Assembly: GCF_900095175.1 (NCBI RefSeq)
Contig: NZ_LT606946.1
Location: forward strand, 1,179,592 to 1,243,591
Reading direction: 5' to 3'
Length of the DNA: 64,000 bases
Source of the DNA: Polynucleobacter necessarius
Lineage (GTDB): Bacteria > Pseudomonadota > Gammaproteobacteria > Burkholderiales > Burkholderiaceae
Of the stretch, positions 15,525 to 56,617 are shown piece by piece. Position 1 is the stretch's first letter. Each line of letters opens with the position of its first letter. The notes beneath the pieces were generated by a model. That model saw only the letters and a list, made by a program, of their open reading frames with translations, was not told where the DNA came from and made no database searches. The position numbers and the translations under genes were made by a program.

Positions 15525-16307
15525 CTCCGAGGACAGCACTTGTGGCTTCTGTCTTAACGCTTCGCCAATCATAACTAAAGCTGGCGAAGCGGCATTAAAC
15601 CACTCATTTGCTTCACCATTCGCCAATTGACCAAGAGTGCTGGACCAATGACGTTCATTCTTGGTGCTGACGGCCCCCAGAATATGGACAGGCGTCCCAT
15701 CATCGTGCTTGGTATCACTCTCAATTAATTGCTTAGCAATGTTTGTTGCATCTTTACGCCCCATGTAATACACCAAGGTATCTGCATTGGGTTGCGCCAG
15801 AGAGGCATGTTCTGATTTTGAAGGATTGTTGTCACCTAGGTCTTGCCCTTGCGCTACAGTGACAAAAGCTACACTTCTGCTAACGCCTCGCAAGGTGAGT
15901 GATTGCTGCATAGAAGCGGCCCCAGCTAAAGCGGCAGTGATGCCAGGCACCACTTCCACTTCAATACCAGCTAGCTTGAGTGCTTGGATTTCTTCATCAG
16001 CACGACCAAACATCATCGGGTCGCCACCTTTTAACCTAATAATGATTTGATGGTTTTTTGCCGCATCCACTAAGCGCTTATTAATAAAATGCTGTGCGGA
16101 AGAAAGCTTGCCGCAACGCTTACCTACAGCCACTTTAGCTGCCTGAGGGCAAAGTTCCAACATTGTTGGATCCACCAAGGCATCATGAAACACGATGTCT
16201 GCCTGCGCCAATAATCTTGCACCACGCAAAGTGATGAGGTCTGCAGCCCCAGGGCCTGCCCCGACCAAAAAAACCTTACCAAGTTTTGGAGTATTAGTTG
16301 TAGACAT
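15447..16307 (-). CDS. cobA: Uroporphyrinogen-III C-methyltransferase (SUMT)
   Basis: A 286-residue SAM-dependent methylase making precorrin-2 on the way to siroheme. Motifs include VGAGPGAADLITLRG at the N-terminus and IRLKGGDPMMFGRA around residue 95. It is the SUMT domain alone, not the full CysG fusion. The last ~30 residues (from about QKPQVLSSELDG) extend beyond the usual SUMT end, and this part overlaps cbiX on the other strand. The overlap may be a read-on after loss of the native stop. Confidence 0.9.
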   Translation of the reverse strand: MSTTNTPKLGKVFLVGAGPGAADLITLRGARLLAQADIVFHDALVDPTMLELCPQAAKVAVGKRCGKLSSAQHFINKRLVDAAKNHQIIIRLKGGDPMMFGRADEEIQALKLAGIEVEVVPGITAALAGAASMQQSLTLRGVSRSVAFVTVAQGQDLGDNNPSKSEHASLAQPNADTLVYYMGRKDATNIAKQLIESDTKHDDGTPVHILGAVSTKNERHWSSTLGQLANGEANEWFNAASPALVMIGEALRQKPQVLSSELDGSCSVLNDGLQNSLVLTNCQRSA

Positions 16308-16883: not shown

Positions 16884-18611
16884 TTAGACCGCTGCACCCT
16901 TGGAGTGTTTGCCATTATTTTTATAGGCAGCCTCCTTAAATGGAGTTACGCCCAATCTGCGATAGGTCTCAATAAATGGTTCGTCAGCCGAGCGCTGCTC
17001 TACATAAGTGTTGATGATGCTGGTCATCACATCCGGAATTTCATTAGCGTAAAAAGAAGGTCCAATGACTTTTCCGATAGAAGCATCATTACCTTGATCA
17101 CCACCTAAAGTAATCTGATACCACTCTTCGCCATCCTTATCAACGCCGAGTACCCCGATATTGCCAACGTGATGATGGCCGCAGGAGTTGATGCAGCCAG
17201 AGATATTTAGGGTGATATCACCTAAGTCATGCAAATAATCCAAGTCATCAAATCGCTCTTGAATTGCTTTGGCAATCGGTAAAGATTTGGCATTGGCTAG
17301 TGAGCAGAAGTCACCGCCTGGGCAGGCAATGATATCTGTGAGTAAGCCAATATTAGGCAGTACTAAATTATAGTTTTTAGCGGCTCGCCAAAGATTTAAT
17401 AACTCTGCCTGCTCCACATCAGCGAAAACCAAATTTTGTTCATGCGTTACACGAAGTTCACCAAAACTATATTGGTCGGCTAAGTCGGCGATGGCATTCA
17501 TTTGCGCGCTAGTGGCATCGCCAGGAGCCGCAGTACCATGGGGCTTGAGCGACAGAATGACTGTGGCATAACCAGGCACTTGATGTGGCTTGACGTTGCG
17601 CTCTAGCCAGCAAGTAAATGCAATCTCCTCATTAGCATCTAGTTTAGATTCGGCATGAGACTGTAATTGCAAACTACTTAATGCTGGCAAGCTTTTATAA
17701 CTTGGTTTGGTAAAGTGCTTAGCGACACGCTCCCACTCAGATTGTGTGAAGTTATCTTTACTTTGCTTGGTGTCGTTATGTAGTTGGGCCCACTCGCCCT
17801 CTACTTGGCGTGCGAATTCTTCTGGGCCTAGAGCCTTGACTAAAATCTTGATCCGAGCCTTGTACAGATTGTCACGCCGACCAAATCGATTATAGACCTG
17901 TAAAAGAGCTGTTAAGTAGCTAGGCAGAACTTGCCATGGAACATTCTGCTTGATGAGTGAACCCAGAATCGGAGTGCGGCCCATGCCACCACCAGCGTAG
18001 ATATTTGCTGTTAACTCACCATTGTTGATGCTGGGATTTTTCTGGAACTCAATACCAACGTCATGACAAAGCAATACGGTGCGATCTTCTTTGGCACCAT
18101 TAATTGCAAACTTGAACTTGCGTGGCAAGTGCGCAAACTCTGGATGGAGTGTTGACCATTGACGGAGTAATTCACAGATGGGTCTAGGGTCGATATATTC
18201 ATCAGCTGCGACTCCGGCAAAAGCATCACTCGTAATATTACGAATACAGTTGCCTGAGGTTTGGATAGCATGCATCTCGACTTTGGCTAGCTCAGCCAAG
18301 ATATCGGGAGTCTGTTCCAGCTCTACCCAGTTAAATTGAATATTTTGACGAGTTGTAAAGTGGTCGTAACCACGGTCATACTTATCCGCAATGAAAGCGA
18401 GGGTGCGTAACTGCCTGGAACTCAACAAGCCATATGGAATGGCAACGCGCAATATGTAAGCATGCCGCTGATGGTAGAGGCCGTTTTGTAGCCGGAGTGG
18501 GCGGAATTCTTCTTCAGCGAGAGTGCCGTTAAGGCGACGCTCAACCTGGTCTCGAAATTAGTTAACCGGCTGATCTACCAGCGTTTGGTCAATAGGGTCG
18601 TATTTATACAT
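16884..18611 (-). pseudogene. cysI: Sulfite reductase hemoprotein, premature TAA at codon 18
   Basis: Siroheme/4Fe-4S enzyme reducing sulfite to sulfide in sulfur assimilation. The true start appears to be ATG 18611 (MYKYDPIDQTLVDQPVN), followed by TAA at 18558-18560 (probably from CAA) and an intact frame (FRDQVERRLNGTLAEEEF) into the conserved body. The cluster-binding cysteines are present as CPGGDFCSLA and CINSCGHHH near the C-terminus. No good alternative start exists downstream (the next ATG-like codons give an N-terminally cut protein). Only one lesion in about 575 codons, so the loss is recent. Confidence 0.88.
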
Positions 18612-19219: not shown

Positions 19220-19996
19220 ATGGCAGCCTACAACACCGAAACCGTACTCACTGTTCATCATTGGAACGACACCCTCTTTAGCTTCACCACCACTCGTAAC
19301 AAAGGCTTACGCTTTCGTAGCGGGCATTTTCTGATGATTGGCTTAGAGGTTGAAAGCAAGCCTTTGGTGAGAGCTTATAGCGTTGCCAGCCCAAATTATG
19401 AAGAGCACTTAGAGTTCTTGAGCATCAAAGTTCAAGATGGCCCCCTCACCTCACGCCTTCAGAAAATTCAGGTTGGCGATCCTATTTTAGTGAGCGAGAA
19501 ATCTGTTGGCACCTTGGTCATTGATGACTTAAATCCAGGAAAACATCTCTACTTATTTAGTACGGGTACAGGCCTAGCGCCATTCATGAGCATCATTCGC
19601 GATCCAGATACTTATGAGAAGTTTGAAAAAGTCGCACTCATTCATGGCGTGCGTTTAGTGAGCGAACTGGCTTATGGTGATTACATTAAGAATGAGCTCA
19701 CTCAAAATGAATACATTGGTGAAATAATTCGTGAAAAATTGATCTACTACCCAACCGTTACGCGCGAAGCATTCAAACACACCGGCAGGCTAACTACCGC
19801 CATTGAATCTGGCCAACTCTTTAAAGATATTGGTTTGCCGCCCCTGGATCCAGCAGTAGATCGCGCGATGATCTGTGGCAGCCCCTCTATGCTTAAAGAG
19901 ACTGCAGAGATGCTCGATGCCAAAGGATTCAAAGTCTCCCCAAGCTTGGGGCAATTAGGTGACTATGTATTTGAACGTGCATTCGTAGAGAAGTAA
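19220..19996 (+). CDS. fpr: Ferredoxin/flavodoxin-NADP+ reductase
   Basis: A 258-residue FAD-dependent oxidoreductase. The FAD-binding motif RAYSVASPNYEEHLEF (near residue 51), the NADP-binding STGTGLAPFMSIIRD (near 115), CGSPSMLKE and an aromatic-poor C-terminal FVEK tail are all visible. It exchanges electrons between NADPH and ferredoxin or flavodoxin. Its divergent position opposite the cysI cluster fits a supply of low-potential electrons to sulfite reductase or Fe-S biogenesis. Intact. Confidence 0.93.
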   Translation: MAAYNTETVLTVHHWNDTLFSFTTTRNKGLRFRSGHFLMIGLEVESKPLVRAYSVASPNYEEHLEFLSIKVQDGPLTSRLQKIQVGDPILVSEKSVGTLVIDDLNPGKHLYLFSTGTGLAPFMSIIRDPDTYEKFEKVALIHGVRLVSELAYGDYIKNELTQNEYIGEIIREKLIYYPTVTREAFKHTGRLTTAIESGQLFKDIGLPPLDPAVDRAMICGSPSMLKETAEMLDAKGFKVSPSLGQLGDYVFERAFVEK

Positions 19997-20271: not shown

Positions 20272-20294
20272 TTATTACAAAGTACTTGTAATAA
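20272..20294. terminator. Inverted repeat between convergent genes
   Basis: TTATTACAA and TTGTAATAA form a perfect 9-bp stem with loop AGTAC. It spans the suyZ stop codon and sits just after the 54-residue gene, where a bidirectional terminator is expected. The stem is AT-rich and lacks a long T run, so activity is uncertain. Confidence 0.4.
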
Positions 20295-21267
20295 AGATTA
20301 AGCCGATTGCCGCAATAAATAAAGTCTCAACAACCAACATCACTACAGGCTGCCAGCCTAACTTAGCCAACTCCTGAAAGTTTGTTTTTAATCCAGCTGC
20401 GCCAATAGCAATCACCAACATCCAGCGGGAAACGCCACTAATAGAGTGCGTAATAGAGCTTGGCAAAATCTGCATAGATGCAACGACTGAGAGCGCGACA
20501 AATCCCAATAGGCATGTTGGTATCAGGCGCAAGCTGCCCCAGCCCAAGCGCTGAGACGATTTCTCGGCACCAAAGAAAATAGAAATAAACAAAACCACCG
20601 GCAGAAGAAGCGCAACCCGAAATAACTTTACAACCGTAGCTACGTCCCCTGCCTCAGGCCCAAATAACATGCCTGCTGCAACTACCTGCGCCACATCATG
20701 AATGGTAGCACCTAGAAAGATCCCTGCAGGTAATGAGGTAATATTGAGCAGCTGTAGAGCGAAGGGGTAAACCACCATTGCAATAGTTGAAAGGACAGTT
20801 ACCCCAACCACTACCAACAAAGTAAAGCGCTCATTCTCTTTTGTTTTTGGCAACACTGAAGCTACCGCTAAAGCAGCTGAAGCGCCGCAAATGCCAACAG
20901 ATCCACCCGCAATCAAACCAAAGTCTGGCGAGAGCTTTAACAGCTTCGCGAGGAAAAATCCCAGAGATACCGTGGCTGCAACTGCAAGGATTACCATCAA
21001 TCCGGTATTCAAGCCGATTGCTCCAATATCTGCAAATGTAATGCGAATTCCTAAGAACGCTACCCCTAAACGTAGAACTGTTTTTGCACAGAAATCAATC
21101 CCAGGTTTAACTGTCTCATTGAGATATAAAAAATGAAGTGATAAGCCGATCAATAAGGCATATAACAACTGCGGTCCACCATAATTCTCAGAGAGAAAAC
21201 TAGTCGACATCGCGATGACAAGGCAAACTAACAGCCCTGGAATATTTTTTCGAGCGGCAGCGAACAT
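20275..21267 (-). CDS. suyZ: YeiH/COG2855 putative sulfate/sulfite exporter, SuyZ type
   Basis: A 330-residue membrane protein with about ten helices of the UPF0324/YeiH family (COG2855). A suyAB-linked member in Paracoccus pantotrophus, SuyZ, was proposed to export the sulfate produced by desulfonation. Features include GLIAGGSVGICGASAALAVASVL and GIFLGATIHDVAQVVAAG. It is the last gene of comC-suyA-suyB-suyR-suyZ, 5 bp after suyR. ATG 21267 is preferred over the TTG before it. Transport of sulfite versus sulfate cannot be told from sequence. Confidence 0.8.
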   Translation of the reverse strand: MFAAARKNIPGLLVCLVIAMSTSFLSENYGGPQLLYALLIGLSLHFLYLNETVKPGIDFCAKTVLRLGVAFLGIRITFADIGAIGLNTGLMVILAVAATVSLGFFLAKLLKLSPDFGLIAGGSVGICGASAALAVASVLPKTKENERFTLLVVVGVTVLSTIAMVVYPFALQLLNITSLPAGIFLGATIHDVAQVVAAGMLFGPEAGDVATVVKLFRVALLLPVVLFISIFFGAEKSSQRLGWGSLRLIPTCLLGFVALSVVASMQILPSSITHSISGVSRWMLVIAIGAAGLKTNFQELAKLGWQPVVMLVVETLFIAAIGLIFITSTL

Positions 21268-21272
21268 CAAGA

Positions 21273-21992
21273 CTAAGCCACTAACTCACTGAAATACTCG
21301 TGTTGAGTGGTATTCAAAGTGGACACACGCCATTCCAAGGGCTCATCTTGAATGCCAAGAGCTACCCGTCGAATTATTAATACTGGGGAATCTGGATTTA
21401 ATCTAAGCCATTCTCCATGCTGCTTGCCTGCTAGTCCTGCACGCAGACGTTCACTACTACGAACAACAGTCTGACCGTATTCCATTTGATACATTTGATA
21501 AATACTGCCCTTGCGGTCAATAAAGTCCGCACGGGTTAAATCTTTAAATCGCTTTTTATCTAGCGTAATCTGATCGATCATGACACATTGCCCTTCCAAT
21601 GAAAGGCGATTGATAATTCTCCAAACTGGAGAGCCCTCTTTAATTTGTAGCTTGCTAGCCTCTTCTTTATTGGCAGCTGCACTATTTAGGGAAACCAGCT
21701 CAACCTTGGGATAAACTTTTTTTTCAACATCATGCTTAACGACATGAAAAAAATAATACAAAAGTCTTTTAAGGTCATGCTCAACAACATAGGTGCCCCT
21801 GCCTTGGCGTCGGACCACGATACCTTCCGCGACCAACTCGTCCACAGCCTTGCGCAGGGTTCCTATCGATACATCTAACTCTTTGGATAAATCCTTTTCG
21901 GCAGGCAAAGCCTGCCCCATAGGATAACGACCCCTGACCAGATCCTCTGTGATCTTTTGCTTGACTTCTTGATAAGCGGTCAGGTTTCTCAT
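21273..21992 (-). CDS. suyR: GntR/HutC-type regulator of the sulfolactate operon
   Basis: A 239-residue regulator. The N-terminal winged helix (LVRGRYPMGQALPAEKDLSK, then VSIGTLRKAVDELVAEGIV with RRQGRGTYV) is followed by a UTRA ligand-binding domain (about 85-235). It is encoded inside the suy operon, 9 bp after suyB, so it probably senses sulfolactate or a relative and controls its own operon. A 30-bp palindrome at 24639-24668 upstream of comC is a candidate operator. Regulator name is by context. Confidence 0.78.
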   Translation of the reverse strand: MRNLTAYQEVKQKITEDLVRGRYPMGQALPAEKDLSKELDVSIGTLRKAVDELVAEGIVVRRQGRGTYVVEHDLKRLLYYFFHVVKHDVEKKVYPKVELVSLNSAAANKEEASKLQIKEGSPVWRIINRLSLEGQCVMIDQITLDKKRFKDLTRADFIDRKGSIYQMYQMEYGQTVVRSSERLRAGLAGKQHGEWLRLNPDSPVLIIRRVALGIQDEPLEWRVSTLNTTQHEYFSELVA

Positions 21993-22001
21993 GCTGGGGA
22001 C

Positions 22002-23174
22002 TTAAGCTGATTCGTATAGACGAGTTAACACGAACTCACGATGGCCGAGAATCTCTGAAGCAGTCAATTCACCATCGGCTGTACGCTTTAAGCAATCCAA
22101 TAGCTTGTTACCTGCATCATCCATGTTCCCTTCACGACGCAACAAGCCAGACACATCAACGTCAATATGCTCACCCATGGTGCGAACTGTCTTTGGATTT
22201 GCGCAAATCTTAATTACCGGAAGAATTGCATTGCCAATGACATTGCCCTGTCCTGTTGGGAAGAAGTGAGCTGCAAAACCAGCGGCTGCGCATAAAGTTA
22301 CCATTTCAGCGGCAGCTGATGATGAATCCATAAAATGCAAACCAGGAATCTTTGGCTCCTCACCTTTATCAAGAACGCTATCCACAATACATTTCTTACC
22401 AATTTTTTGGATATTACCGAGAGCCTTCTCTTCGATGGTTGTTAAACCACCTGCAATATTGCCTTTGGTTGGCTGAGAATCAGATAAGTCACTTGTCTTA
22501 TGGCGCTTAATCACATCTTGGTAGCGATCAAACATTTCGCGGAACTTTTTCTTTACCTCAGGAGTGCGGCAACGTGCCTCAACTAAATGCTCACCACCAG
22601 TTAGCTCGGTAGTCTCACCAAACACCAGGGTTGAGCCAATTTCATACAACTTATCAAAAGCATCCCCAACGGTTGGGTTTGCACCACAGCCAGAAGTCGT
22701 ATCAGATTCACCGCATTTAGTAGAAACCCACAACTCTGACAAAGGAGCAGAAACTCGCTTTTGCTTAGATGCGTGCTTCATCATGCTGTAGGCAGCTTTA
22801 CTAGCAGAAGCAATAGTTGCGGTGTCGCCATTACCTTCAATCCAGAAACCTTTTGCTAGCTTTCCTGAAGCTTTGATGCCATCTACAACAATCTTTGTCC
22901 ACTGTGGCTCAATACCAATAACTACGACAGCAGCAACATTTGGATTGCAACCTGTTCCAATCAAAGTGCGGAAATGTAAATCTAAGTCAGCTCCGAACTG
23001 CAAACGGCCATAGGAGTGAGGAATCGCCATTGTTCCTTTGATGTTGTTTGCTACCGCTTCGCAAGCGGCGTTAGACAAGTCATCTAAAGGCAAAATCAAT
23101 ACATGATTACGAATGCCCATGCGGCCGTTTTCACGGCGGTAACCTAAAAAGGTCGCGTCTTTCAAATTAGTCAT
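22002..23174 (-). CDS. suyB: (2R)-sulfolactate sulfo-lyase large subunit
   Basis: A 390-residue protein of the UxaA/altronate dehydratase family, beginning [24 protein letters not shown]. Size matches the 42-kDa SuyB subunit known from Paracoccus. SuyAB splits (R)-3-sulfolactate into pyruvate and sulfite and is iron dependent. Cysteines in [23 protein letters not shown] and the late [12 protein letters not shown] are candidate metal or cluster ligands. A split small/large pair is also seen for some sugar-acid dehydratases, but the partner genes (comC, COG2855 exporter) favour SuyB. Confidence 0.8.
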
Positions 23175-23215
23175 TTTTATATCTCTTTCAATGAATAGGT
23201 AAATAAGGTGCCGGA

Positions 23216-23497
23216 TTACCAGCGCTTAGTTTTTACGTTTTGGACGTGAAGGTGCTCGCCTTTTTTGATTGGAGCTACCACCTTGCCAATATCAACGCCG
23301 TATTTCATCACCGTGTCACCTAGCTTGAAATCGTTCAATGAAATTTTGTGACCAATAGGAATATCACTTTCAGACTTAATGTTTAAGGTGAGATCGCCAT
23401 CCATGACCCAACCAATTAAATCAGCTCCAGCTTTTACACCCTCAACTACTACTACACCTACGCCATCTGCTGGCTCATGCACGACAAAGTGGATCAT
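23216..23497 (-). CDS. suyA: (2R)-sulfolactate sulfo-lyase small subunit
   Basis: A 93-residue SAF-domain protein, the size of the 8-kDa SuyA subunit. The fold is recognised from [14 protein letters not shown] and the end [20 protein letters not shown], as in the N-terminal domain of altronate dehydratase. It has a strong GGAG ribosome-binding site and precedes suyB by 41 bp. Together they form the desulfonating lyase. Intact. Confidence 0.82.
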
Positions 23498-23528
23498 TAC
23501 TATCTCCTCAATAATCTCGTTTAAAAAA

Positions 23529-24539
23529 CTACTTAGCCCATGACTGGCGAATACCAGCCTGAATTTCCTCTACAACAACATCAGAAACTGTTACACCGCC
23601 TTTAAACCCTGCTTTGCGCCGTTGAAAACGACGCTGGCCAGGGAGACGAATTCCCGCATCAGCACTCAATACTTTCAAGAAGTCTTGAATACGACTGGCA
23701 AAAACAGCTGGACCCGACAAACCAGGATCAATCGTTAATATCAACTGACCAATTCGCGGGCGATTACCCTTGGGGTCAAAAAAAGAATCTGCCTCATATG
23801 AAAACCGGCTACCCGAAAGTCCAACTACTAGCAACTCAACGATCAAAGCGAGCAAAGCGCCCTTATCTCCACCAAGCGGAACCATTAAGCCCTTTAGGCC
23901 TTCTTGTGGATCAGTGGTTGGCTTGCCCTCAGCGCTCAAAGCCCACCCCTCTGGGATCTGTTGGCCATTTTTTGCTGCAACCAATAATTTTCCACGGGTA
24001 ACCGCAGAAAGCGACATGTCAATCACCAATGGATCGGCGCCAGCAATTGGAAAAGCCGCAGCCAAGGGATTGGTCCCGAAAATTGCTTTTGCGCCACCGA
24101 CCATAGGCATTGCTGCTGGAGTATTCCCAAACAGCAAAGAAATATAACCAGCTCGTGCAGCAGCTTCAACGTAATGACCCGCAACCCCAAAATGATTGCT
24201 ATTGGTGACTGCCACCAAACCCAAGCCATTGCCCGAGGCTAAATTCACCGATAAGTCGGTAGCAAAACGAAGTGCTGGAAAAGCCAACCCATCGCGCGCA
24301 TCAACCAAAGCGGCGGAGGTCTTAAATGGCCTCACCTTTAACTTGGGAGCTAATTCAATACGCCCATTTTTAGCATGTCCAGCGTATTGAGCCACTCTCG
24401 TTAGACCATGCGATGCAAGGCCGTCTAGTTCAGCCAGAGCCAAAAATTGAGCTGTTTCATGCGCCGCTACCGCATCCATGCCGGCAGCTTTGAGGCCCGA
24501 ATCCGCTAAAGCGAGTATTTCAGGGTATGTGAGATTCAT
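23529..24539 (-). CDS. comC: Ldh2-family (R)-sulfolactate dehydrogenase, ComC type
   Basis: A 336-residue NAD(P)-dependent dehydrogenase of the malate/L-lactate (Ldh2) family. Conserved segments are VAVTNSNHFGVAGHYVEAA with the catalytic histidine, and FGTNPLAAAFPI. Family members include ComC, which interconverts sulfopyruvate and (R)-sulfolactate. Being first in the operon with suyAB, it could supply (R)-sulfolactate from sulfopyruvate, for example from cysteate. No (S)-sulfolactate dehydrogenase (slcC) is in the window. Start ATG 24539 is chosen over an in-frame TTG 15 bp upstream. Malate or ureidoglycolate activity cannot be excluded. Confidence 0.72.
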   Translation of the reverse strand: MNLTYPEILALADSGLKAAGMDAVAAHETAQFLALAELDGLASHGLTRVAQYAGHAKNGRIELAPKLKVRPFKTSAALVDARDGLAFPALRFATDLSVNLASGNGLGLVAVTNSNHFGVAGHYVEAAARAGYISLLFGNTPAAMPMVGGAKAIFGTNPLAAAFPIAGADPLVIDMSLSAVTRGKLLVAAKNGQQIPEGWALSAEGKPTTDPQEGLKGLMVPLGGDKGALLALIVELLVVGLSGSRFSYEADSFFDPKGNRPRIGQLILTIDPGLSGPAVFASRIQDFLKVLSADAGIRLPGQRRFQRRKAGFKGGVTVSDVVVEEIQAGIRQSWAK

Positions 24540-24638
24540 GCTGGCGCTTTGCAATCAAGAACAATCAAAATCAATGCTGTAAAACACAGGGTTTTAGAGG
24601 CTTGACTTAAATGAATGTTAGGGATCAAAATAGGATAC

Positions 24639-24668
24639 ATATCTGAATCATATAGATGATTTAGATAT
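24639..24668. promoter_or_regulatory. 30-bp palindrome, candidate SuyR operator
   Basis: Two 13-base arms, ATATCTGAATCAT and ATGATTTAGATAT, match at 12 of 13 positions across a 4-base spacer. It sits in the divergent gap between comC (starts 24539) and the binding-protein gene (24841), about 100 bp from comC. Position and symmetry fit a dimeric regulator such as the GntR protein encoded in the operon. The rest of 24540-24840 is AT-rich with an additional 8-bp-arm repeat (AATAAATA/TATTTATT) near 24760 and no coding sequence. Confidence 0.5.
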
Positions 24669-24840
24669 CTTGCAAGAACCAATTCATTGTGCAGCGCAAC
24701 GAATGTAAAGTGGTGCTACATGATGGGTGGGGGAGACAGTAGTGACGTATAAGCATATAACTAATAAATAGCAATAAAGCGTATTTATTGATAACAAAGT
24801 AGCTAAGATATAAAAATCAAATTACCACTGGAGGTCACCA

Positions 24841-25827
24841 ATGTTTAAGATTGAAAAATATAAGTTAAGTCGACGTTTAGCTTTACTAGTCGGCGCACTC
24901 ACCCTTGCACTACCGCAGCTAGCAACAGCACAATCTTGGCCCACCAAGCCAATTAAATTAATCATTCCCTTTAATGCAGGGGGAACTACTGATATTTTGG
25001 GCAGATTATTAGTGCAGCAATTAACTAAGGATTTAGGTCAAAATGTCATTGTTGAAAATAAGGGTGGTGCTGGCGGTAACATAGCTGCTGAGTATGTGGC
25101 ACAGTCATCTGCTGACGGTTACACCATCATGCTCGCATCGGGCAGTATGCTGACGGTTAATCCCAACTTATATAAAAAATTGCCGATTGATTACAGCAAA
25201 GACTTTGTAAACATCACCAATGTTGCGAGCGGTCCAATGCTATTGTCAGTAAGCAATAAAATGCCTGTGAAAAATTTAACAGAGTTCATCACATACGCCA
25301 AAACAAAAGATCTCAATTTTGGCTCTGCAGGTATTGGTAGCCAAGCCCACATGGCAGGTGAAAATCTTACCTATACAGCAAACATCCCCGCTACCCACAT
25401 TCCTTACAAGGGTGAGTCAGCCGCCATCAATGATCTGGTCGCAGGTCAAATTGACTTTATGGTTGGAAACCTCACTGCAGCCACTGGTTTTGCTAAAAAT
25501 GGTCAAATCAAGCCAATTGCAGTAACCAGTCCACAGCGCGTGAAGCAACTATCAGAGGTGCCAACCGTTTCCGAGAGCGGCATCCCTGGCTTTCAGAGTA
25601 CTGGTTGGTTTGGTTTAGTTGCACCAGCAAATACGCCTAAAGCCATCATTGAGAAAATTTACAACGCTACTGTCAAGGCAATGAACTCCGACTCCATGAA
25701 GAAAAGTTTGGGCTCAAATGGCTTAACAGCAGTTGTAAATTCCCAGGATGAATTTAATGCTCAAATTAAAGCAGAGTCTGCCAACTGGGAAAAAGTCATT
25801 AAAGGTCGTAATATTAGCCCTAAATAA
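24841..25827 (+). CDS. TTT-family periplasmic substrate-binding protein (TctC/Bug)
   Basis: A 328-residue periplasmic receptor. A signal peptide ends at about residue 31 (ALPQLATAQS), followed by the Bug fold opening WPTKPIKLIIPFNAGGTTDILGR. These proteins deliver carboxylate or related anions to a TctAB membrane pair; no tctA or tctB is in the window. In other bacteria a TTT-type transporter (SlcHFG) serves sulfolactate uptake, and the divergent suy operon makes sulfolactate or a related sulfonate a sensible ligand. GGAGGT lies before the start. Confidence 0.85.
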   Translation: MFKIEKYKLSRRLALLVGALTLALPQLATAQSWPTKPIKLIIPFNAGGTTDILGRLLVQQLTKDLGQNVIVENKGGAGGNIAAEYVAQSSADGYTIMLASGSMLTVNPNLYKKLPIDYSKDFVNITNVASGPMLLSVSNKMPVKNLTEFITYAKTKDLNFGSAGIGSQAHMAGENLTYTANIPATHIPYKGESAAINDLVAGQIDFMVGNLTAATGFAKNGQIKPIAVTSPQRVKQLSEVPTVSESGIPGFQSTGWFGLVAPANTPKAIIEKIYNATVKAMNSDSMKKSLGSNGLTAVVNSQDEFNAQIKAESANWEKVIKGRNISPK

Positions 25828-25843
25828 CGACTCAGTAAATAAT

Positions 25844-25873
25844 AAAAAAGCGAGGATTCATCCTCGCTTTTTT
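25844..25873 (+). terminator. Bidirectional Rho-independent terminator
   Basis: GCGAGGA and TCCTCGC form a 7-bp stem around the loop TTCA, flanked by A6 and T6. It ends the binding-protein gene on the plus strand and the tauE-containing operon arriving on the minus strand. Confidence 0.92.
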
Positions 25874-25889
25874 ATTTACTGCTATCGAA

Positions 25890-26641
25890 TTATGCAATCT
25901 GCCTAATCAACAGAATTGCACCAGCAAATAGCAAGATTAAACCGTAAGCCAAGCGCATCATTGCATTACTCAACTTAGTATGGACATGTGTGCCAGTCCA
26001 TATTCCCAAGAATGCTACTGGCATAAGCAGCACTGCCAAACCAATTACTTCCCAGCTTAATATCAATCCAGTTACCAGCATTAGAATCAATCGCAAGAAA
26101 GTCAACATAAAGATGGCAAATGCCATTGTTGCGCGTAATACTTTAGGATTATTAATACGAAGACCAAGGTAAGAAACGTAGAGGGGACCCCCGGTAGCAA
26201 AGAGAGCGGTAAATGCACCCCTAAGAATCCAAGGGGTAGCGCCCACCATTTACTAATGGGGTCCCTAGCTTCGACATTCCTTTGGATGAGAACCCTAATT
26301 CCATTGACCGCTGCAAATAATCCAAGAATCAATAGCAAGGGTTCGCTGGGGGATTTAACCAGCAAAAAAATCCCCAAGAACATCCCCATGACACTAAAAG
26401 GAAAGAGCCATTTAAGCTCTTGAATATCGGCATCACCTGAGGACTTCCTACCAACATACAAGGAGGCGCAGATGTCTACCAACACCATCATTGGCACCAC
26501 TACCTTTAAAGGGTACATTTGTACCAATAAGGGGACTGCAACAATCGATGAGCCAAATCCAGAAACCCCGAAGATAAAGAATGTGCACAAGACTATGAGT
26601 ACTGCCAGCGCAAATGAGAGCGGTTCTATTAAATCAAAAAT
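25890..26641 (-). pseudogene. TauE/SafE family anion exporter, frameshifted
   Basis: About 250 codons of a TauE/SafE membrane permease (FFIFGVSGFGSSIVAVPLL, then GAFTALFATGGPLYVSYLG). Family members export sulfite, sulfoacetate or other C2/C3 anions. The frame breaks near 26225-26235: a run of four G, where five would join FLG to GAFTALF. The start is also odd: the coding signal reaches IFDLIEPLSFALAV at about 26641 but the first codon is ATT, so an ATG may be lost. The gene overlaps or abuts the flavoprotein stop at 26644 and was probably the last gene of that operon. Confidence 0.75.
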
Positions 26642-26643
26642 AA

Positions 26644-28362
26644 TTAGCTCTCAACCAAGATCGTCTCGCCTGGCTTAATCATGGTGAATTGGACTGGCCT
26701 CTTTTCAATTTTCAAACCCTGATCACTTAACTGCACCGCCGTGAAATAAGAGCTTTCCAATGGCCCCGGCTCCGGATAATCATCGCGATAGTGAGCCCCT
26801 CTAGAATTTTCTCTTGCAAGAGCCGCTTCGGTTACTGCCTTACTCACCAGAATTAAATTACGTAAATTCATCCAATCCTGCCATGTAATGCTGTACTGCC
26901 TCTGAATATCGCCAACGCCCATTTGATCTAGCTGTTGACCCAGCTCATCCAATTTAACTCGAGCCTGAATCAAATTATCTTTGCTACGGGATATTCCAAC
27001 ATCATCCCACATACACTCCGCCAGAGCATCTCGAATCATTTCAATATCACCCGCAGGCTTTATCAGAGGAGATTCGTGAGTTTCGATGCTGGCCAGCACC
27101 TCTGCCATATTGCACTCCTGCAAGGATTGTGAAGCCACCCATTTAGCCATCTCCTCACCCGCAATACCACCATAAACAGTGGAATTAGCTACTCCATTAC
27201 CACCCAAGCGATTGGCGCCATGCACGCCTCCGGTATCTTCACCAGCAGCAAATAGACCTAGCAACTCAGTACTGCAGTCTGCCTTGAAAATTAAACCACC
27301 CATTATGTAATGCGCAGTTGGAACTACTTCCACAAGATCGCCCGCCAAATCAAAACCACTGTCAGCGCAGCGCTCAACCATCCCCTTAAATTGCTTGCGT
27401 ACATTATCAGGACCAAGGTGGCTCATCTGAATATAGACACCGCCATTAGGCGTTGCTCTACCAGCCCGTATCTCTGAGTTAATCGATCTTGAAACAATGT
27501 CTCGTGTAGCACGCTCATTACGAGGATCATAGTTACCCATAAATCGCTCATGATTGCCATTGAGTAAATATCCGCCTGCACCACGCAAACCTTCCTCAAG
27601 AACAGTACCAGTCATCCTAGTGCCAGGCCCTGCTAACATTCCTGTTGGATGGAACTGCACCATCTCCATGTCACGCAAAGTAAGACCTGCGCGTAGCGCC
27701 ATAGCCAAGCCATCGCAACTCTTATCACCTGAAGGGGTATGATACTTATACATAGTGGGTCCACCACCTGTAGCCAAAAGTACCGCCTTAGCTCTGACCA
27801 GCGTGAACTCACCAGTCTGCATATTGAGCATCAATACACCGGCTAGCGACTTTCCATCAGCACTATGAATCAGCTCAAGTGCCCTATGCTCCTCAAGACG
27901 ATGGATTCCCCTAGCCCAAACTTGCTCAGCCAGCCGACTAATGATTTCAATACCCGTCAGATCACCCTTATGAACTATGCGATCAAAGGTTTGTCCTGCG
28001 AATGCTTTTTGATGAACCGTTCCATCTGGATTGCGATCAAAAAAACAACCGAGTTCATTCTCCAGTTCATGAATACGCTCAACCGCTTTATTGACTAAGG
28101 TCCAAGCTAGCTCCTGATCTGAAAGCTATTTTCCGCCCTCGATCGTATCCATAAAGTGACGCTCTACAGAGTCACCCTCAGCCAATGCTACGTTGTAACC
28201 ACCCTGAACCATGCGGGTACAACCGCATTTACCAAGCAAACCCTTCACAGCAATAGTGATGTGTAGATCTGGATTAGTTTGATGAGCATGCAAAGCTGCA
28301 AACAGTCCTGCGCCACCAGAACCCAGAATCAGGATGTCCGTCTCAAGTGTGGCGATATTCAT
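26644..28362 (-). pseudogene. Sdh/Frd-like flavoprotein subunit, premature TAG
   Basis: A 572-codon flavoprotein of the succinate dehydrogenase/fumarate reductase superfamily. FAD binding: ILGSGGAGLFAALHA at the start, LLATGGGPTMYKYH and GLFAAGEDTGGVHGANRLGG. Catalytic region: NERATRDIVSR and VVPTAHYIMGG. An in-frame TAG (28126-28128) follows IEGGK, where Trp or Tyr is expected; the rest reads intact. The position that holds the covalent-FAD histidine in SdhA/FrdA (SHT) is Cys here (GCTRMVQGG), so FAD would be non-covalent. It shares a run with its Fe-S and anchor subunits but is separated from them by fumarase genes. Confidence 0.8.
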
Positions 28363-28970
28363 GATGTAATTCCTAGACTCTTCAATACAGCCTCTTTGTT
28401 ACGAGCAACATCACTTTTAACTTCTTGATAAATACTTCCGCCATGACTATCCATCGCAACTAGCAGAGGGCCAAAATCTTTAATCTTGAAACGCCAGAGA
28501 GACTCTGGATTGAGATCATCCATGTCTACATCTTCAATCTGCTCAATCCAAGTTGTCTCAAGCGCTGCTGTACCACCAATAATTGCCAGGTACACACCGC
28601 CAAGCTCTTGAAAGGCTGCCGCAGATCCTTCGCGCATACCACCCTTACCAACAATCATACGAACGCCATTTTCAGTCATTAATGGGCGGGTAAACCGCTC
28701 CATGCGATCTGAGGTAGTTGTGCCAATACAGATTGGCTGATAGCCAGCTGGAAATTCTTCGCTGACGGGAACCTTACGCACATTTGGCGCTGTATGAATT
28801 ACCGCATGTCCATTGAGATCAAAGCGGGTTTTTCTACCCTTATCAAATAAGTGAATCTGCGTAGCATCTCGGATACCAAACAAAGTATTTTGCAAAGTTA
28901 CTGTGTCGTTAATGCGAAGTTTGCGAATATCAGATTCGCTAACGGGAGTTGGAAGGTAGTAGTGGGCCAT
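28359..28970 (-). CDS. Class I fumarase / tartrate dehydratase beta subunit
   Basis: A 203-residue C-terminal-type subunit of the two-subunit Fe-S hydro-lyases (fumarase class I or L-tartrate dehydratase TtdB). Key segments: ICIGTTTSDRMERF, MIVGKGGMREGSAAAF and VAMDSHGGSIYQE. It pairs with the alpha subunit upstream to hydrate a trans-unsaturated diacid or dehydrate the hydroxy acid. It overlaps the flavoprotein start by 4 bp. This gene is intact while its partner is frameshifted, so the enzyme is presumably not made. Confidence 0.85.
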   Translation of the reverse strand: MAHYYLPTPVSESDIRKLRINDTVTLQNTLFGIRDATQIHLFDKGRKTRFDLNGHAVIHTAPNVRKVPVSEEFPAGYQPICIGTTTSDRMERFTRPLMTENGVRMIVGKGGMREGSAAAFQELGGVYLAIIGGTAALETTWIEQIEDVDMDDLNPESLWRFKIKDFGPLLVAMDSHGGSIYQEVKSDVARNKEAVLKSLGITS

Positions 28971-28978
28971 TTGTACTC

Positions 28979-29829
28979 CTAGAATCCGAAAGTCACACCG
29001 TCAGGTGTAAAAGTTGCTCGCGCTCTACGCGCAGAATGGCATTGCATATTGACAGCCACTGGGTTTAAGGTGATATGCGTGTGAGCAAGCTCTACATGAA
29101 CAGCAAACGCTGTTCCGTCACCACCTAAACCTTGGGGACCAATTCCCAGCTTATTCACAGCGGTAGTTAATTCCCGCTCTAACTTAGCACCCTCTTCATC
29201 ACTGCATACACTACCCAATGCTCTTGTAGCAGCTCGCTTAGCCATCGCAACACATTGTTCGGATGTACCGCCAATACCAACTCCAACAATGGTTGGAGGG
29301 CAAGTCTTTCCTCCGGCAGAAACAACACTTTCGATAACAAAGGCTTTGACACCATTAATTCCATCAGCAGGAATGGCCATCTTTAAAAAGGAATTATTCT
29401 CCGAACCACTTCCTTTGGGGACCATCTCAATTTCAAGCATTTGATCATCATCACAGAAATCAATGCTAATTGCTGGCATATCAATACCACAAGAAGTGTG
29501 ATTATTTTTTCTCGTAATGGGTATTCAGTGGTTGCACGCTCACAGCCTTTTCTAATGGCTGCCTTAAGCTCCATGCCGTCAAGCTGAACATTGCGACCAA
29601 TTTTTATTTTGTAAATGGGCAAGCCAGTATCTTGACAGAGCAGGTTATCCTCGCGCTCAGCTACTGAAATATTGGTAATCATGGTTTTTAAGACAACCTG
29701 GGCACGCGCATCTGTCTCGCCTTGATTTAAACGCTCGATACCAGCCTTCACATCATCTGGTAGAACTTTTAATGCTCGGATATAAAGCTCCTTGCAAGCT
29801 TCTTCAACTGCTTTCATTTGTAACTGCAT
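28979..29829 (-). pseudogene. Class I fumarase / tartrate dehydratase alpha subunit, frameshifted
   Basis: The Fe-S subunit of a two-subunit class I hydro-lyase. The three cluster cysteines are visible: [21 protein letters not shown] and MQCHSARRA. The reading frame breaks at about 29507 in a run of six A; seven A would join PLREK to NNHTSCGIDMPAISIDFC. ATG 29829 (MQLQMKAVEEA) is a likely start, since the TTG four codons earlier abuts the upstream gene's stop. About 283 residues if restored, a normal size. Confidence 0.82.
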
Positions 29830-29841
29830 CACATTGCCCAA

Positions 29842-30201
29842 TCAGTTTGCTAAATACAAAAATAGAAGACCACAAGCTATACCGAATAAGATGGCTGCCT
29901 GTGTCCAAGCCTTACGAAGGCCGCACCACGGACCAAACTCAATCATGAGCAGTCGAATTCCGCCAATCAAATGAATAGCCAACAAAATAACGAGCACCCA
30001 CTCACCAAATTTGAATACCCCAAAATCGGTAAATCCCAAATAGCGCTCAAAGCCACTAGCTCCGCGCAAAGACTGAGAGAGCATTAAGAAATGCAAAGGA
30101 ATAAAACAAGCTAGTAGCAAGCCAGAGAAACGATGACATACATAAGCAAAATAAGAGAGATGACTTTTTGCGCGTAAATCGAGTTTTGGTCTAGACCTCA
30201 T
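29842..30201 (-). CDS. Sdh/Frd-like cytochrome b membrane anchor, SdhC type
   Basis: A 119-residue protein with three membrane helices. HRFSGLLLACFIPLHFLML carries the conserved HRxSG and a heme-ligand histidine typical of SdhC-like anchors; the second helix region is EWVLVILLAIHLIGGIRLL. ATG 30201 overlaps the previous stop as ATGA, deciding the start. It would anchor the flavoprotein and Fe-S subunits and pass electrons to or from quinone. Confidence 0.75.
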   Translation of the reverse strand: MRSRPKLDLRAKSHLSYFAYVCHRFSGLLLACFIPLHFLMLSQSLRGASGFERYLGFTDFGVFKFGEWVLVILLAIHLIGGIRLLMIEFGPWCGLRKAWTQAAILFGIACGLLFLYLAN

Positions 30202-30548
30202 GGAGTACCTCCGGTATAGACACCAATCACCGCTGAAGTTCCCAGAGTAATAATGAGAGCTCCCAAGATCCAAGATAGCGCCCTGGAAACAAATCCCTTG
30301 CAACACGCTTCTTCGAGGATATTAGCCAAGCCAATAGGTGCATGCACAAAACAGGCTAAGACAAAGATTTCATAAAAAATGGCAAACGCAATATTGCCTT
30401 GTGTGCGCCCAAGAATCTCCTCAGCAGTTAGGCCGCCGCGTATTGCGTAGAAAATAATGACGAGATGAATGCTGACACAGAGCCCCAAAATCATGGCGCT
30501 AATTCTTTGAGCATACCAAAGCTTCGCCTGTAATATTCCCTGACTCAT
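30198..30548 (-). CDS. Sdh/Frd-like second membrane anchor
   Basis: A 116-residue protein with about three helices (AMILGLCVSIHLVIIFYA, FAIFYEIFVLACFVHAPIG, SWILGALIITLGTSAVIGV) and conserved-looking histidines in the first two. It overlaps the Fe-S subunit stop and the next anchor gene by 4 bp each, so the subunits are translationally coupled. It resembles the small anchor subunits of fumarate reductase-like complexes more than standard SdhD. Confidence 0.68.
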   Translation of the reverse strand: MSQGILQAKLWYAQRISAMILGLCVSIHLVIIFYAIRGGLTAEEILGRTQGNIAFAIFYEIFVLACFVHAPIGLANILEEACCKGFVSRALSWILGALIITLGTSAVIGVYTGGTP

Positions 30549-31276
30549 AACTTACCCCATTTGCCGCCACGTACAGCAGCTCTGGCTACTAGTTTCTTAA
30601 GACCAGCAATGCTGGCTGTAGGCTCCAGCTTCTTCGGGCAGCGCTCAGTACAGGATCCTTGCGTGTGGCATGCATGACAACCTTCATCGCCAGCAACTGC
30701 ACGCAGGCGATCCAAGTGCTGTACATCCCGTACATCATTGGTTAATGTCTAGGCGCGATTGAGTGCAGCAGGCCCCAAATATTTAGGACGCTTTTCAACC
30801 ACCTCGCAAGAGGAGTAACAAACACCGCAACTAATGCACTCAATACCGGCATTCGCTAATTGACGCTCCGCTGAATTTGGCTCCACCTTTGCAAAATCAT
30901 CATGGCGCGTTTTATCGCCCTTGAAAAACCCAACGGCACCCTTCCATTTATTAAAGAACTCTCGCATATCGGTGGCGAGATCTTTAATGACCGGGAGATT
31001 GTTCAAGAGCGCAATTTCTAATGAATCACCCACCACAATTTGAGAGACATGAGTGCGACAAGTCCAACGCGCAACCCCGTTTACAGTCATTGCACAAGAC
31101 CCACACATTCCTACTCGACAAGCAAATCGATAGCTTAGGGTTGGGTCCAATTTACGCTGAATATAGGTCACCACATCCAAAACGGTTTGATTTGGATTTC
31201 GGGGCACCAAGTACTCAACAAACTCACCTTCTTGAGCACCGCGCCAGACTTTTACCTTGAGATCTGAATTTGGCAT
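30545..31276 (-). pseudogene. Sdh/Frd-like iron-sulfur subunit, premature TAG
   Basis: Fe-S protein with an N-terminal 2Fe-2S domain (YRFACRVGMCGSCAMTVNG) and C-terminal 4Fe-4S/3Fe-4S domain (CISCGVCYSSC, and CHACHTQGSCTERCP). An in-frame TAG at 30749-30751 follows ALNRA, where Trp (TGG) is expected, and removes the last ~67 codons including the second cluster motif. The open frame continues to TGA at 30545-30547, overlapping the anchor gene. It is the first gene of the operon opposite the LysR gene. Confidence 0.82.
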
Positions 31277-31360: not shown

Positions 31361-32269
31361 ATGTCTAGCATTCGGATACTAAAAAACTTTCTAGTAATTA
31401 CTAGGCACAAGAGTGTCGCGGCTGCAGCCAAAGAAATTGGGCTCACGGCTGCAGCAGCAGGCCAGCAGCTTGCGCAATTTGAGGCTGAGCTTGGTGTGGA
31501 GTTGTTTGATAGAACCAAGCGCTCTCTTAGCCTAAATCAACAGGGTAGATCGTTAATAGAGCCTATTCAAGATATTGTTGCGCGGTATGAAGCCCTAGGC
31601 TCTGAATTAAAGTCCGAACTCAGTGGAACCATTGTCTTGGGGGCGCTTGTCTCAACTCTAATGGGAGCCTTTGGAAGCACCCTCAATAAACTTAAGAAAT
31701 CCTACCCCAGCCTTGAAGTAAAGCTAATAGCAGGCTTATCCAGCAACTTTTTAGACCAAGTGCTTGAAGGAAGTTTAGACGCAGCGATTGTTACTGAGTC
31801 CCCTTATGCGTTACCGCAAAATATTCAGTGGACGGAGTTGTATACCGAGCCCATGGTCTTGATTTACCCCACACTTAAAAATACAAAAGCCTCTGATCCT
31901 AAAAATATCGCACATGACTTACCGTTTATTCGCTTTGAGAGAAATACTTGGACAGGTCATCTTGTAGACCAAACCATTCGATCAAGTAAATTAAGCGTTA
32001 AAGAGGGCATGGAACTCAATTCAGTTGAGGCCATTATTGAGCTAGTACGCCAAGGGCTTGGTTACTCTATTGTTCCCAAGCTAGCCAATATCGCCTGGGA
32101 AAGCGACCGCCAACTCAAAATATCCGCACTACCCGGCAAAACAATTTACAGAAAAGTTGGTTTATTAGAAAAACGTAGGCACTCCCGTCAACACATGACT
32201 CAAGAAATAAAAAAGTACTTTTTAGAGCAAGTGGGTACAAAAGAAAAACCACCCCGCAGGGTGGCTTGA
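31361..32269 (+). CDS. LysR family transcriptional regulator
   Basis: A 302-residue LysR regulator with an N-terminal helix-turn-helix (SVAAAAKEIGLTAAAAGQQLAQFE) and a C-terminal PBP-like effector domain. It is divergent to the Sdh-like/fumarase/tauE operon, so that operon is its most likely target and the effector may be its substrate. Intact, although three of the genes it probably controls are broken. The last codons form a CCACCC/GGGTGG hairpin that could help termination. Confidence 0.85.
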   Translation: MSSIRILKNFLVITRHKSVAAAAKEIGLTAAAAGQQLAQFEAELGVELFDRTKRSLSLNQQGRSLIEPIQDIVARYEALGSELKSELSGTIVLGALVSTLMGAFGSTLNKLKKSYPSLEVKLIAGLSSNFLDQVLEGSLDAAIVTESPYALPQNIQWTELYTEPMVLIYPTLKNTKASDPKNIAHDLPFIRFERNTWTGHLVDQTIRSSKLSVKEGMELNSVEAIIELVRQGLGYSIVPKLANIAWESDRQLKISALPGKTIYRKVGLLEKRRHSRQHMTQEIKKYFLEQVGTKEKPPRRVA

Positions 32270-32452: not shown

Positions 32453-33567
32453 ATGGTGGTATCAAAGAAAGCGGGAATGCCCTCTCACTTAATTGCAAGT
32501 CTTCTCACGGCTGCCCTAGCGCTTCCAGCTGTGGCACCAGTGGCATTTGCTCAAAATAAGCAGCCAACAGCAAGCGGCAAAGCTTTCACAAGCTCAATTA
32601 GAGGCCTTGGTAGCACCGATTGCACTCTACCCAGATGCGCTAGTTTCGCAAGTACTGATGGCGTCAACCTACCCTCTTGAAGTAGCTGAAGCATCTAATT
32701 GGATCAAATCCAATACCAACCTAAAAGGCGATGCTCTAAATAAAGCATTGCAACAGCAAAGCTGGGATGCTAGCGTCAAATCTTTAGCGTCATTTCCACC
32801 AGTGCTGGAGATGATGGGATCCCAGTTGAGCTGGACGCAGCAACTTGGCAATGCAGTATTGGCTCAGCAATCTGAAACCATGAGTGCGATTCAAGCATTG
32901 CGTGCCAAGGCGAAAAAAAGCTGGCACATTGGAATCAAATTCTCAGCAGACAGTGACAACGCAAGGTAGTGGCAGTAGTCAGACCATTATCATTGAGCCT
33001 GCGAACCCACAAGTTGTCTATGTTCCCACTTACAACCCAACCGTTGTTTACGGCGCATGGGCCTACCCAGCATACCCTCCATACGCATACTATCCACCTG
33101 GATACGTAGCGGGCACTGCCCTCCTCTCTTTTGGAGTTGGCATGGCAGTTGGAGCGGCACTTTGGGGCGGCTGCCATTGGGGAGGCGGTTATGGTGGTGG
33201 ATCATTGACCGTCAATAACAATAACTTCAACAATTTCAATAAGAACACTAATAACAAGTGGAACGGCAATCGTGATGGTGGGTCTAGTGACTGGAAACCA
33301 GATCAATAACGCCGTAATGCAAACCTCGGTGGAGGTGCCGGTGGCGCGAACCGTAATGCAGAGCGAGATCAATTACGTCAGAACCTGCAGCGCGGGGATT
33401 TGAGCGGTAATCGTGCTGGCGATTGCGCGGGTAATACAGGCGGCGACCGTGGCGGCAATTTTGGTGGTGGCGATCGCAACGTCGGCGCTCGCTTTGATGG
33501 TAGCGGCGATCACTTTGGCGGTGGCCATGGCGGCTTTGGTGGCGGCGGTTTCCGCGGCCGTCGCTAA
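32453..33567 (+). pseudogene. DUF3300 secreted protein with three lesions
   Basis: The signal peptide (about residues 1-31, ending PVAFAQ) and DUF3300 core (LVAPIALYPDALVSQVLMAS, then PANPQVVYVPTYNP) are clear, followed by a Gly/Asn/Arg-rich tail. Lesion 1, about 32563, looks like one extra C before a run of Gln codons. Lesion 2, about 32923, is seven A where six would join KAKK to AGTLESN. Lesion 3 is a TAA at 33307-33309 (probably CAA), after which the glycine-rich tail stays open to 33567. ATG 32453 follows AAGGAG. This is the most decayed gene in the window. Confidence 0.8.
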
Positions 33568-56616: not shown

Positions 56617-56617
56617 C

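Follow-up and report, generated by a model that had tools for sequence, protein, structure and literature searches.

Gene content of the locus

We analyzed a stretch of 64,000 nucleotides from Polynucleobacter necessarius (contig NZ_LT606946.1, positions 1,179,592 to 1,243,591; hereafter the window), which is part of a genome of 1.91 Mb in one contig. Reading from 31.3 to 20.3 kb on the minus strand, the window contains sdhB, sdhC, sdhD, fumA, fumB, a flavoprotein gene and tauE, followed by comC, suyA, suyB, a GntR-type gene and a PF03601 exporter gene. The first seven are referred to as the second operon and their counterparts in other genomes as the module; the later genes form the suy operon, and ‘operon’ denotes gene arrangement only. 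The second operon is best read as the decayed form of a module that is widespread and probably acts on sulfonates. A preliminary description, made from the sequence, had given a gene list and coordinates for both operons that were borne out by Pfam and NCBIfam; it had missed that four of the seven genes of the second operon are broken. The features are as follows.

20275..21270, minus strand: suyZ-like anion exporter of the PF03601/YeiH type; open; Pfam PF03601, 225 bits; TIGR00698, 136 bits, below its cut-off of 232.6
21273..21992, minus strand: suyR, GntR/UTRA regulator; open; Pfam GntR and UTRA; adjoins suyB in relatives
22002..23174, minus strand: suyB, putative (R)-sulfolactate sulfo-lyase large subunit; open; Pfam GD_AH_C and GD_AH_second
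23216..23497, minus strand: suyA, putative small subunit; open, 93 aa; TIGR03248, 30 bits (weak); immediately precedes suyB in relatives
23529..24554, minus strand: comC-like (R)/L-sulfolactate dehydrogenase (Ldh_2); open; top NCBIfam match NF040650, L-sulfolactate dehydrogenase, 204.9 bits
24841..25827, plus strand: TctC-type solute receptor; open; PF03401, 237 bits
25890..26590, minus strand: tauE; frameshift near 26.2 kb, two overlapping open reading frames (ORFs) forming two halves of PF01925; single frame in the relative G040
26644..28362, minus strand: SdhA/FrdA-like flavoprotein of a sulfonate-linked family; in-frame TAG at 28128-28126; intact G040 orthologue of 572 aa
28359..28970, minus strand: fumB, class I hydratase beta subunit; open; PF05683; 97% to G040
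28979..29841, minus strand: fumA, class I hydratase alpha subunit; frameshift near 29.5 kb
29842..30201, minus strand: sdhD-like membrane anchor; open; PF01127, 46 bits; start taken at the ATG overlapping sdhC
30198..30548, minus strand: sdhC-like membrane anchor; open; PF01127, 29 bits
30545..31276, minus strand: sdhB-like Fe-S subunit; in-frame TAG at 30751-30749; PF13085, 89 bits on the open part
31361..32269, plus strand: LysR-type regulator, divergent, upstream of sdhB; open; LysR domains; 96% to G040

The small and large UxaA-family subunits of SuyAB are encoded separately, and the suyB product matched at 74% the UxaA-family protein at the hpsN-hpsO locus of Cupriavidus pinatubonensis HN-2, the SuyB of a sulfonate operon. 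SuyAB of the window is predicted to be the lyase that cleaves (R)-sulfolactate to pyruvate and sulfite. Passages of PMC12421959 give (R)-sulfolactate as the SuyAB substrate, and an excerpt of PMC5695019 describes ComC, the L-sulfolactate dehydrogenase, as the (R)-enzyme. SuyB was aligned to galactarate dehydratase; a cysteine criterion for SuyB is mentioned in PMC6336799. A motif scan of the window gave 13 promoter-like sites, compared with 21.2 in shuffled sequences (standard deviation 4.3), and 17 terminator-like sites, compared with 12.7 (standard deviation 3.6); this result was not used.

Decay of the second operon

In the window sdhB and the flavoprotein gene each contain an in-frame TAG, and fumA and tauE each contain a frameshift; sdhC, sdhD, fumB and the suy genes are open. 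Each of the four broken genes is a single open frame in a near relative (genome G040). Across 25 loci of the same genus (L034-L058) the flavoprotein frame was at least 570 residues and that of fumA at least 292, and the tauE frame was at least 252 in the 19 loci where the gene was found. Two loci, L078 and the draft locus L079, were obtained after these 25; in the latter, fumA was in two pieces.

We compared the window with G040 using ORFs of at least 100 aa; the count covers the window beyond its first 20 kb, where the G040 stretch (L215) had no aligned ORF. Eleven of the 37 G040 ORFs that aligned are broken in the window, four of them in the module, while suyB, suyR, comC, tctC and lysR aligned at full length. 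Outside the module, seven genes carry stops or frameshifts relative to G040 or are only partly covered; they lie at 32559-33438, 39583-41777, 47522-48817, 53416-53882, 54569-54995, 56161-56625 and 60915-62171. Decay is therefore not limited to the second operon, and the window looks like part of a genome in recent genome-wide decay, as in a symbiont. The second operon was rejected as a working unit in this genome: as encoded, the module cannot function there and only the sulfolactate part is open. The window thus presents a catabolic module early in its decay.

Linkage within the genus

The genes sdhB-sdhC-sdhD-fumA-fumB-flavoprotein were found in one order, together with comC, in all 25 same-genus loci. 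The preliminary description had named a constant separation of the operons among relatives as the pattern that would refute its proposal. No such pattern was found: suyA-suyB lay downstream of the module in 24 of the 25 loci, the contig of the 25th (L054) ending in comC, and the operons also stood together in many loci of other families. The gene slcC, which usually accompanies comC, preceded it in 16 of the 25 loci and was missing from the other nine and from the window; a search of the whole genome of the window (G000) gave best matches to slcC of only 29-33% identity.

Counted by genome (n = 121), a close FumB and a close SuyB occurred together in 36, FumB only in four, SuyB only in four and neither in 77. 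The FumB copies of the four FumB-only genomes (G001, G022, G051 and G056) lay 0.7-4.3 kb from a contig end on the suy side. In the SuyB-only genomes (G003, G025, G109 and G067, the last with a 5.6-kb contig from a genome 84% complete) slcC and comC adjoin suyAB. Consequently, suyAB has alternative, interchangeable feeds: slcC/comC, the module or both. The association of the suy genes with the genes of the second operon is more than chance.

Distribution outside the genus and link to desulfonating enzymes

Scanning named genomes with an alignment of the flavoprotein returned at least 593 stretches, of which 577 were confirmed. The best 80 of the 577 were mostly from Betaproteobacteria by title, with alphaproteobacterial metagenome-assembled genomes (MAGs) and a few others, and suyB (at least 55% identity) was inside the fetched DNA in 40 of these 80. 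Neither Bilophila wadsworthia nor Roseovarius nubinhibens was among the titles of the best 80, no search having been aimed at them. Plasmid records with the module came from Paracoccus, Sulfitobacter, Methylobacterium, Cupriavidus, Pseudomonas, Pseudorhizobium, Rhodococcus jostii and two haloarchaea. Five MAG contigs (L090, L095, L103, L104 and L107) are titled Bordetella parapertussis in the public record and are probably mislabelled.

After removal of eight duplicate loci, and with the 26 same-genus flavoprotein loci (suyB in 25) set aside, 97 loci had the hydratase of the window (type 1), 23 had a second type (type 2; this number includes L140, a 4.9-kb contig), two had an ArgH-like lyase and 10 had no hydratase nearby. 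In other families suyA-suyB-(TPP)-sdhBCD-fumAB-flavoprotein-comC was often a single run, TPP being a thiamine pyrophosphate enzyme. A 15-kb run in Methylobacterium radiotolerans holds sdhBCD, fumAB, the flavoprotein, a TPP enzyme, TauE, two genes of the UxaA family (suyAB), a symporter for dicarboxylates, slcC, comC and a regulator of the GntR type. In Rhodococcus jostii the module genes are within ∼21 kb of a suyB. In L134, a MAG of the Rhodospirillaceae, a distance of 4-9 kb separates the module from genes for sulfoacetaldehyde acetyltransferase Xsc (925 bits, cut-off 676), a protein like phosphate acetyltransferase, a regulator of the MocR type and an omega-aminotransferase; L138, which clusters with L134, has the same gene set. 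Loci L127 and L136 contain the flavoprotein, anchors and TauE with no hydratase nearby, together with glutamate-mutase-like genes (named by eye) and an enolase-superfamily gene. A sulfatase-family gene (L107:5793-7178 and relatives) was present in 12 of 95 loci, in several cases with sdhD and tctC on either side.

We also used an even sample of 397 Pseudomonadota genomes chosen without regard to linkage, in which the flavoprotein and SuyB were accepted at E ≤1e-120 and Xsc above its cut-off. The flavoprotein was present in 13 genomes, including that of the window, Xsc in 30 and SuyB in 15; in a sample of the order of the window the flavoprotein was present in 52 of 399. SuyB or Xsc was encoded in 12 of the 13 flavoprotein genomes compared with 29 of the 384 others (p 3.5e-12) and, with two same-genus genomes removed, in 10 of 11 (p 2.9e-10), both values overstating independence since the genomes are related. 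This enrichment argues against a module that acts on a plain C4 or C5 acid (fumarate, tartrate, mesaconate or citramalate) and is near suyAB only through the clustering of accessory catabolic genes. Those acids, offered as alternatives in the preliminary description, do suit the protein families, which are those of fumarase/tartrate dehydratase and succinate dehydrogenase, and the glutamate-mutase-like genes near L127 and L136. We nevertheless consider this explanation very unlikely, given also the genome's own SdhA, the suyB near the module in Rhodococcus jostii and the SuyAB-like genes that adjoin it in two haloarchaea.

The TPP enzyme (L108:12759-14405 and relatives) recurs within 15 kb of the module in 34 of the 97 type 1 loci outside the genus. 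It was below the cut-off of the 25 NCBIfam models shown, which include acetolactate synthase, 2-hydroxyacyl-CoA lyase and Xsc. Both this enzyme and comC would have a use if the substrate were another sulfonated acid, for example sulfosuccinate: the dehydrogenase-like complex would yield sulfofumarate, the hydratase would hydrate it, and ComC together with a decarboxylation would lead to sulfopyruvate and sulfolactate. The DctA-like transporter in 10 of 95 loci would also be in keeping with such a substrate. However, extra steps would be needed, the slcC in many loci fits plain sulfolactate, and no report of such a route came up, though no search was aimed at it; we regard it as unlikely.

Sequence features of the enzymes

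The module encodes a flavoprotein, an Fe-S subunit and membrane anchor subunits, the composition of the succinate dehydrogenase/fumarate reductase (SDH/FRD) family, while the intact G040 flavoprotein fell short of the curated cut-offs (TIGR01812, 444 of 567; TIGR01816, 345 of 727). The four-subunit make-up is that of E. coli FrdABCD and M. smegmatis Sdh1, and the FrdA motifs HPTG, RD, HY and HGANRLG, which we take to be catalytic, are kept in the alignment. Unlike these enzymes, the module flavoprotein has a Cys in place of the His that links flavin adenine dinucleotide (FAD), a Glu-Glu substrate site and, in all members of its family, an additional T-R loop; its scores are below the SdhA/FrdA cut-offs. 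The genome of the window encodes its own SdhA and NadB, both above curated cut-offs; the module flavoprotein is therefore not the enzyme of the tricarboxylic acid cycle.

The G040 flavoprotein also matches NadB models, and these too were below cut-off (369.4 of 452.75). Together with the missing FAD His, this resemblance would suit a cysteate dehydrogenase similar to L-aspartate oxidase, which would supply sulfopyruvate to ComC. Such a role would leave the linked hydratase without a function, and with the NadB cut-off not reached we judge it highly improbable.

With regard to the hydratase, the intact FumA of G040 scored 312.7 against the cut-off of 276 of the class I fumarate hydratase alpha model, while FumB of the window stayed below curated beta-subunit models (TIGR00723, 140 of 145.15; PRK06043, 133 of 269). 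The alpha and beta subunits can each be aligned along most of their length with the two-subunit class I fumarase of PDB 7xky, presumably that of Methanocaldococcus jannaschii; the beta-subunit motif is GPTTSxRM in the latter and GTTTSxRM in the module. A further ORF in the genome of the window is 32% like FumB and matched no NCBIfam model at E 1e-100.

Proposed pathway

From the genes, their linkage and their co-occurrence with desulfonating enzymes we infer a substrate, a direction, a quinone link, a stereochemistry and an export step. We favor, with moderate confidence, a route in which the intact module feeds a C3 sulfonate into sulfolactate cleavage. The membrane-bound, quinone-linked SDH-like complex (flavoprotein, Fe-S subunit and two anchors) would oxidize 3-sulfopropionate to 3-sulfoacrylate; the two-subunit class I hydratase would add water to C2 of sulfoacrylate, giving (R)-sulfolactate; and SuyAB would split (R)-sulfolactate into pyruvate and sulfite. 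Sulfite or sulfate would leave the cell through TauE and the PF03601 protein, and TctC-type or other transporters would take up the substrate. By analogy, succinate, fumarate and L-malate would map onto 3-sulfopropionate, sulfoacrylate and sulfolactate. By the Cahn-Ingold-Prelog rules sulfolactate in its L-malate-like form has the R configuration, as does the sulfolactate used by SuyAB. A fumarase-like hydration would thus give the right enantiomer with no need for a racemase, which suits the absence of slcC from the window and from nine of the 25 same-genus loci. The module is real, linked and sulfonate-associated, and the pathway is probable.

Several observations weigh against this route. 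The chief one is the Cys that aligns with the FAD-binding His of FrdA (H44). Variants of FrdA that lack covalently bound FAD no longer oxidize succinate, and the same change here would favor reduction. In the alignment Glu replaces the Thr of the substrate site of FrdA (Thr-Glu becoming Glu-Glu), and the top NCBIfam match of FumB is the L(+)-tartrate dehydratase beta subunit (151 of 264 bits). comC would be superfluous if the hydratase yields (R)-sulfolactate directly; ComC itself, although NF040650 is its best model, is well below the equivalog cut-off of 500, and PDB 1wtj (175.4 bits) ranks above 2x06 (156.6 bits), a different family scoring higher. One of the 13 flavoprotein genomes (G488, type 1) has neither SuyB nor Xsc, and suyB is within 20 kb in 59 of the 97 type 1 loci, some of them on short contigs, and in none of the 23 type 2 loci.

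The Cys also bears on the direction of the reaction, since it recalls enzymes that are better at reducing than at oxidizing. In a reversed module, sulfolactate would be converted via sulfoacrylate to 3-sulfopropionate, with a quinol-linked flavoprotein acting as reductase in an electron sink. The co-induction with sulfolactate metabolism described in passages on Paracoccus (PMC12421959) would agree with this, if the cluster concerned is the module. We find a reversed module improbable: the module is accompanied by receptors for uptake and by exporters of sulfite, it would be in competition for carbon with SuyAB or Xsc, and the carriers are, we assume, mostly aerobes.

Relation to known pathways

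Passages of PMC11489063 report formation of 3-sulfopropionate in dihydroxypropanesulfonate (DHPS) fermentation by Enterococcus gilvus and in homotaurine oxidation by Cupriavidus necator, call its degradation previously unreported and show that Bilophila wadsworthia can respire it. Excerpts of PMC9594981 and PMC12890257 list its breakdown as needing study, the latter calling the mechanism in Bilophila unclear. The preliminary description knew of no established pathway of this exact form; the intermediates, however, had already been put forward in a Konstanz thesis (J. Mayer), which according to passages of PMC11489063 proposed a homotaurine route via 3-sulfopropionate, sulfoacrylate and sulfolactate for Roseovarius nubinhibens. 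The likeness of that route to ours is in the intermediates; no genes for it were found in those passages. No paper pairing suyAB with a fumarase was found in the open-access literature searched.

The closest described system is the SlcC/ComC/SuyAB pathway of Chromohalobacter and Paracoccus (PMC12421959, in excerpt), with which the module loci share suyA, suyB, comC and TauE, and slcC in the 16 same-genus loci mentioned above. The module adds the SDH-like complex and the class I hydratase, and slcC is missing from the window and nine loci. In the same excerpts, Paracoccus grown on sulfofucose shows an increase in SlcC, ComC and SuyAB and likewise in nine proteins of a ‘fumarate and tartrate metabolism’ cluster that includes a TauE homologue, for which a link to the Krebs cycle was suggested. 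We think that this cluster may be the module described here, and count the joint increase in favor of the proposed route; the connection is by description, not by sequence, which tells against that route.

If the favored route holds, the module provides candidate genes for 3-sulfopropionate breakdown in Pseudomonadota, on a Rhodococcus plasmid and on haloarchaeal plasmids, and the conversion of 3-sulfopropionate to sulfolactate would be a step of sulfur recycling. Some genes recorded in genomes as ‘succinate dehydrogenase’ or ‘fumarase’ are probably genes for sulfonate enzymes.

A second hydratase type and a haloarchaeal lyase

Type 2 hydratases are 36% identical to type 1 in the alpha subunit and 28-30% in the beta subunit (L142, L154), and their gene order is sdhBCD-flavoprotein-fumA'B'. 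Type 1 has the motif GTTTSxRM and type 2 the motifs MCxDTGxPR, HKGGLFG and GAVTATASFRF, whereas the flavoprotein motif is common to both. The surroundings also differ: comC was found in 65 of 97 type 1 loci compared with one of 23 type 2 loci, and a gene for methylmalonate-semialdehyde dehydrogenase (MMSDH; at least 55% identity) was within 12 kb in none of the type 1 and five of the type 2 loci. The latter gene is directly downstream of the type 2 module in Pseudomonas MPC6 and in L176. Genes for a sulfite oxidase and an exporter are near the type 2 hydratase in MPC6 and Methylobacterium nodulans. In Paracoccus versutus, also type 2, suyB is ∼23 kb away. The idea that each hydratase type forms one clade on the flavoprotein tree was rejected: type 2 loci do not group as a single clade, and the label was counted to change 13 times (‘none nearby’, 10 loci, being one label), so the loci cannot be treated as independent events. 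In L171 (annotated) and in L168, L175 and L178 (by eye) a gene of the amidohydrolase family comes after those of the type 2 hydratase.

It is conceivable, though speculative and of rather low probability in our estimate, that the lineages split on sulfoacrylate. Type 1 would hydrate C2 and need SuyAB, while type 2, with a rebuilt active site, would hydrate C3 to 3-hydroxy-3-sulfopropionate, which would break down to sulfite and malonate semialdehyde. 3-Hydroxy-3-sulfopropionate is the bisulfite adduct of malonate semialdehyde, and the hydration of chloroacrylate is a parallel for such a breakdown. If true, a C-S bond would be broken by simple hydration. The lack of suyB within 20 kb of type 2 loci, the MMSDH counts and the sulfite oxidase and exporter genes point in this direction, as does G493 (the genome of L176), in which a whole-genome search found neither SuyB nor a match to the beta subunit of sulfopyruvate decarboxylase.

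Whole-genome searches of 12 flavoprotein genomes (11 with type 2, plus G488 with type 1) found SuyB in four, Xsc over its cut-off in 10, sulfopyruvate decarboxylase beta over its cut-off in six and MMSDH over its cut-off in 10. SuyB or Xsc is encoded in every one of the 11 type 2 genomes, and the decarboxylase beta subunit in six of them as well. In L177 the type 2 module adjoins an hpsN-like gene (55% to hpsN) and genes for both sulfopyruvate decarboxylase subunits, over their cut-offs. These results count against C3 hydration: sulfolactate may be the end point of the type 2 route as well, and MMSDH favors the other route by where it lies and not by being present.

Plasmids of Natribaculum luteum and Haloarcula GH36 encode an Fe-S subunit and the flavoprotein (47-49% identity), a lyase annotated as ArgH, TauE and small and large UxaA-family proteins, the Haloarcula plasmid also an Ldh_2 protein. 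The Haloarcula lyase passed the argH model (323 over 279.5) and did not reach the XcbC cut-off (257 bits compared with 575). That an enzyme of another superfamily occupies the place of the hydratase suggests that an unsaturated acid undergoes hydration or another addition at this step; in the haloarchaea this acid would be sulfoacrylate. The ArgH/XcbC-like lyase recalls XcbC1 of coenzyme M synthesis, a member of the aspartase/fumarase superfamily that is reported in passages of PMC8727900 to form sulfoacrylate; XcbC1, unlike the module, is biosynthetic and acts by phosphate elimination.

Neighboring genes

Three further genes of the window lie within ∼5 kb of the suy operon: a nitrite/sulfite-reductase hemoprotein gene (16884-18452, minus strand), an ORF that by eye resembles uroporphyrinogen methyltransferase (15447-16307, minus strand) and a gene for an oxidoreductase with FAD- and NAD-binding domains (19220-19996, plus strand). 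They possibly represent sulfite assimilation next to sulfite release.

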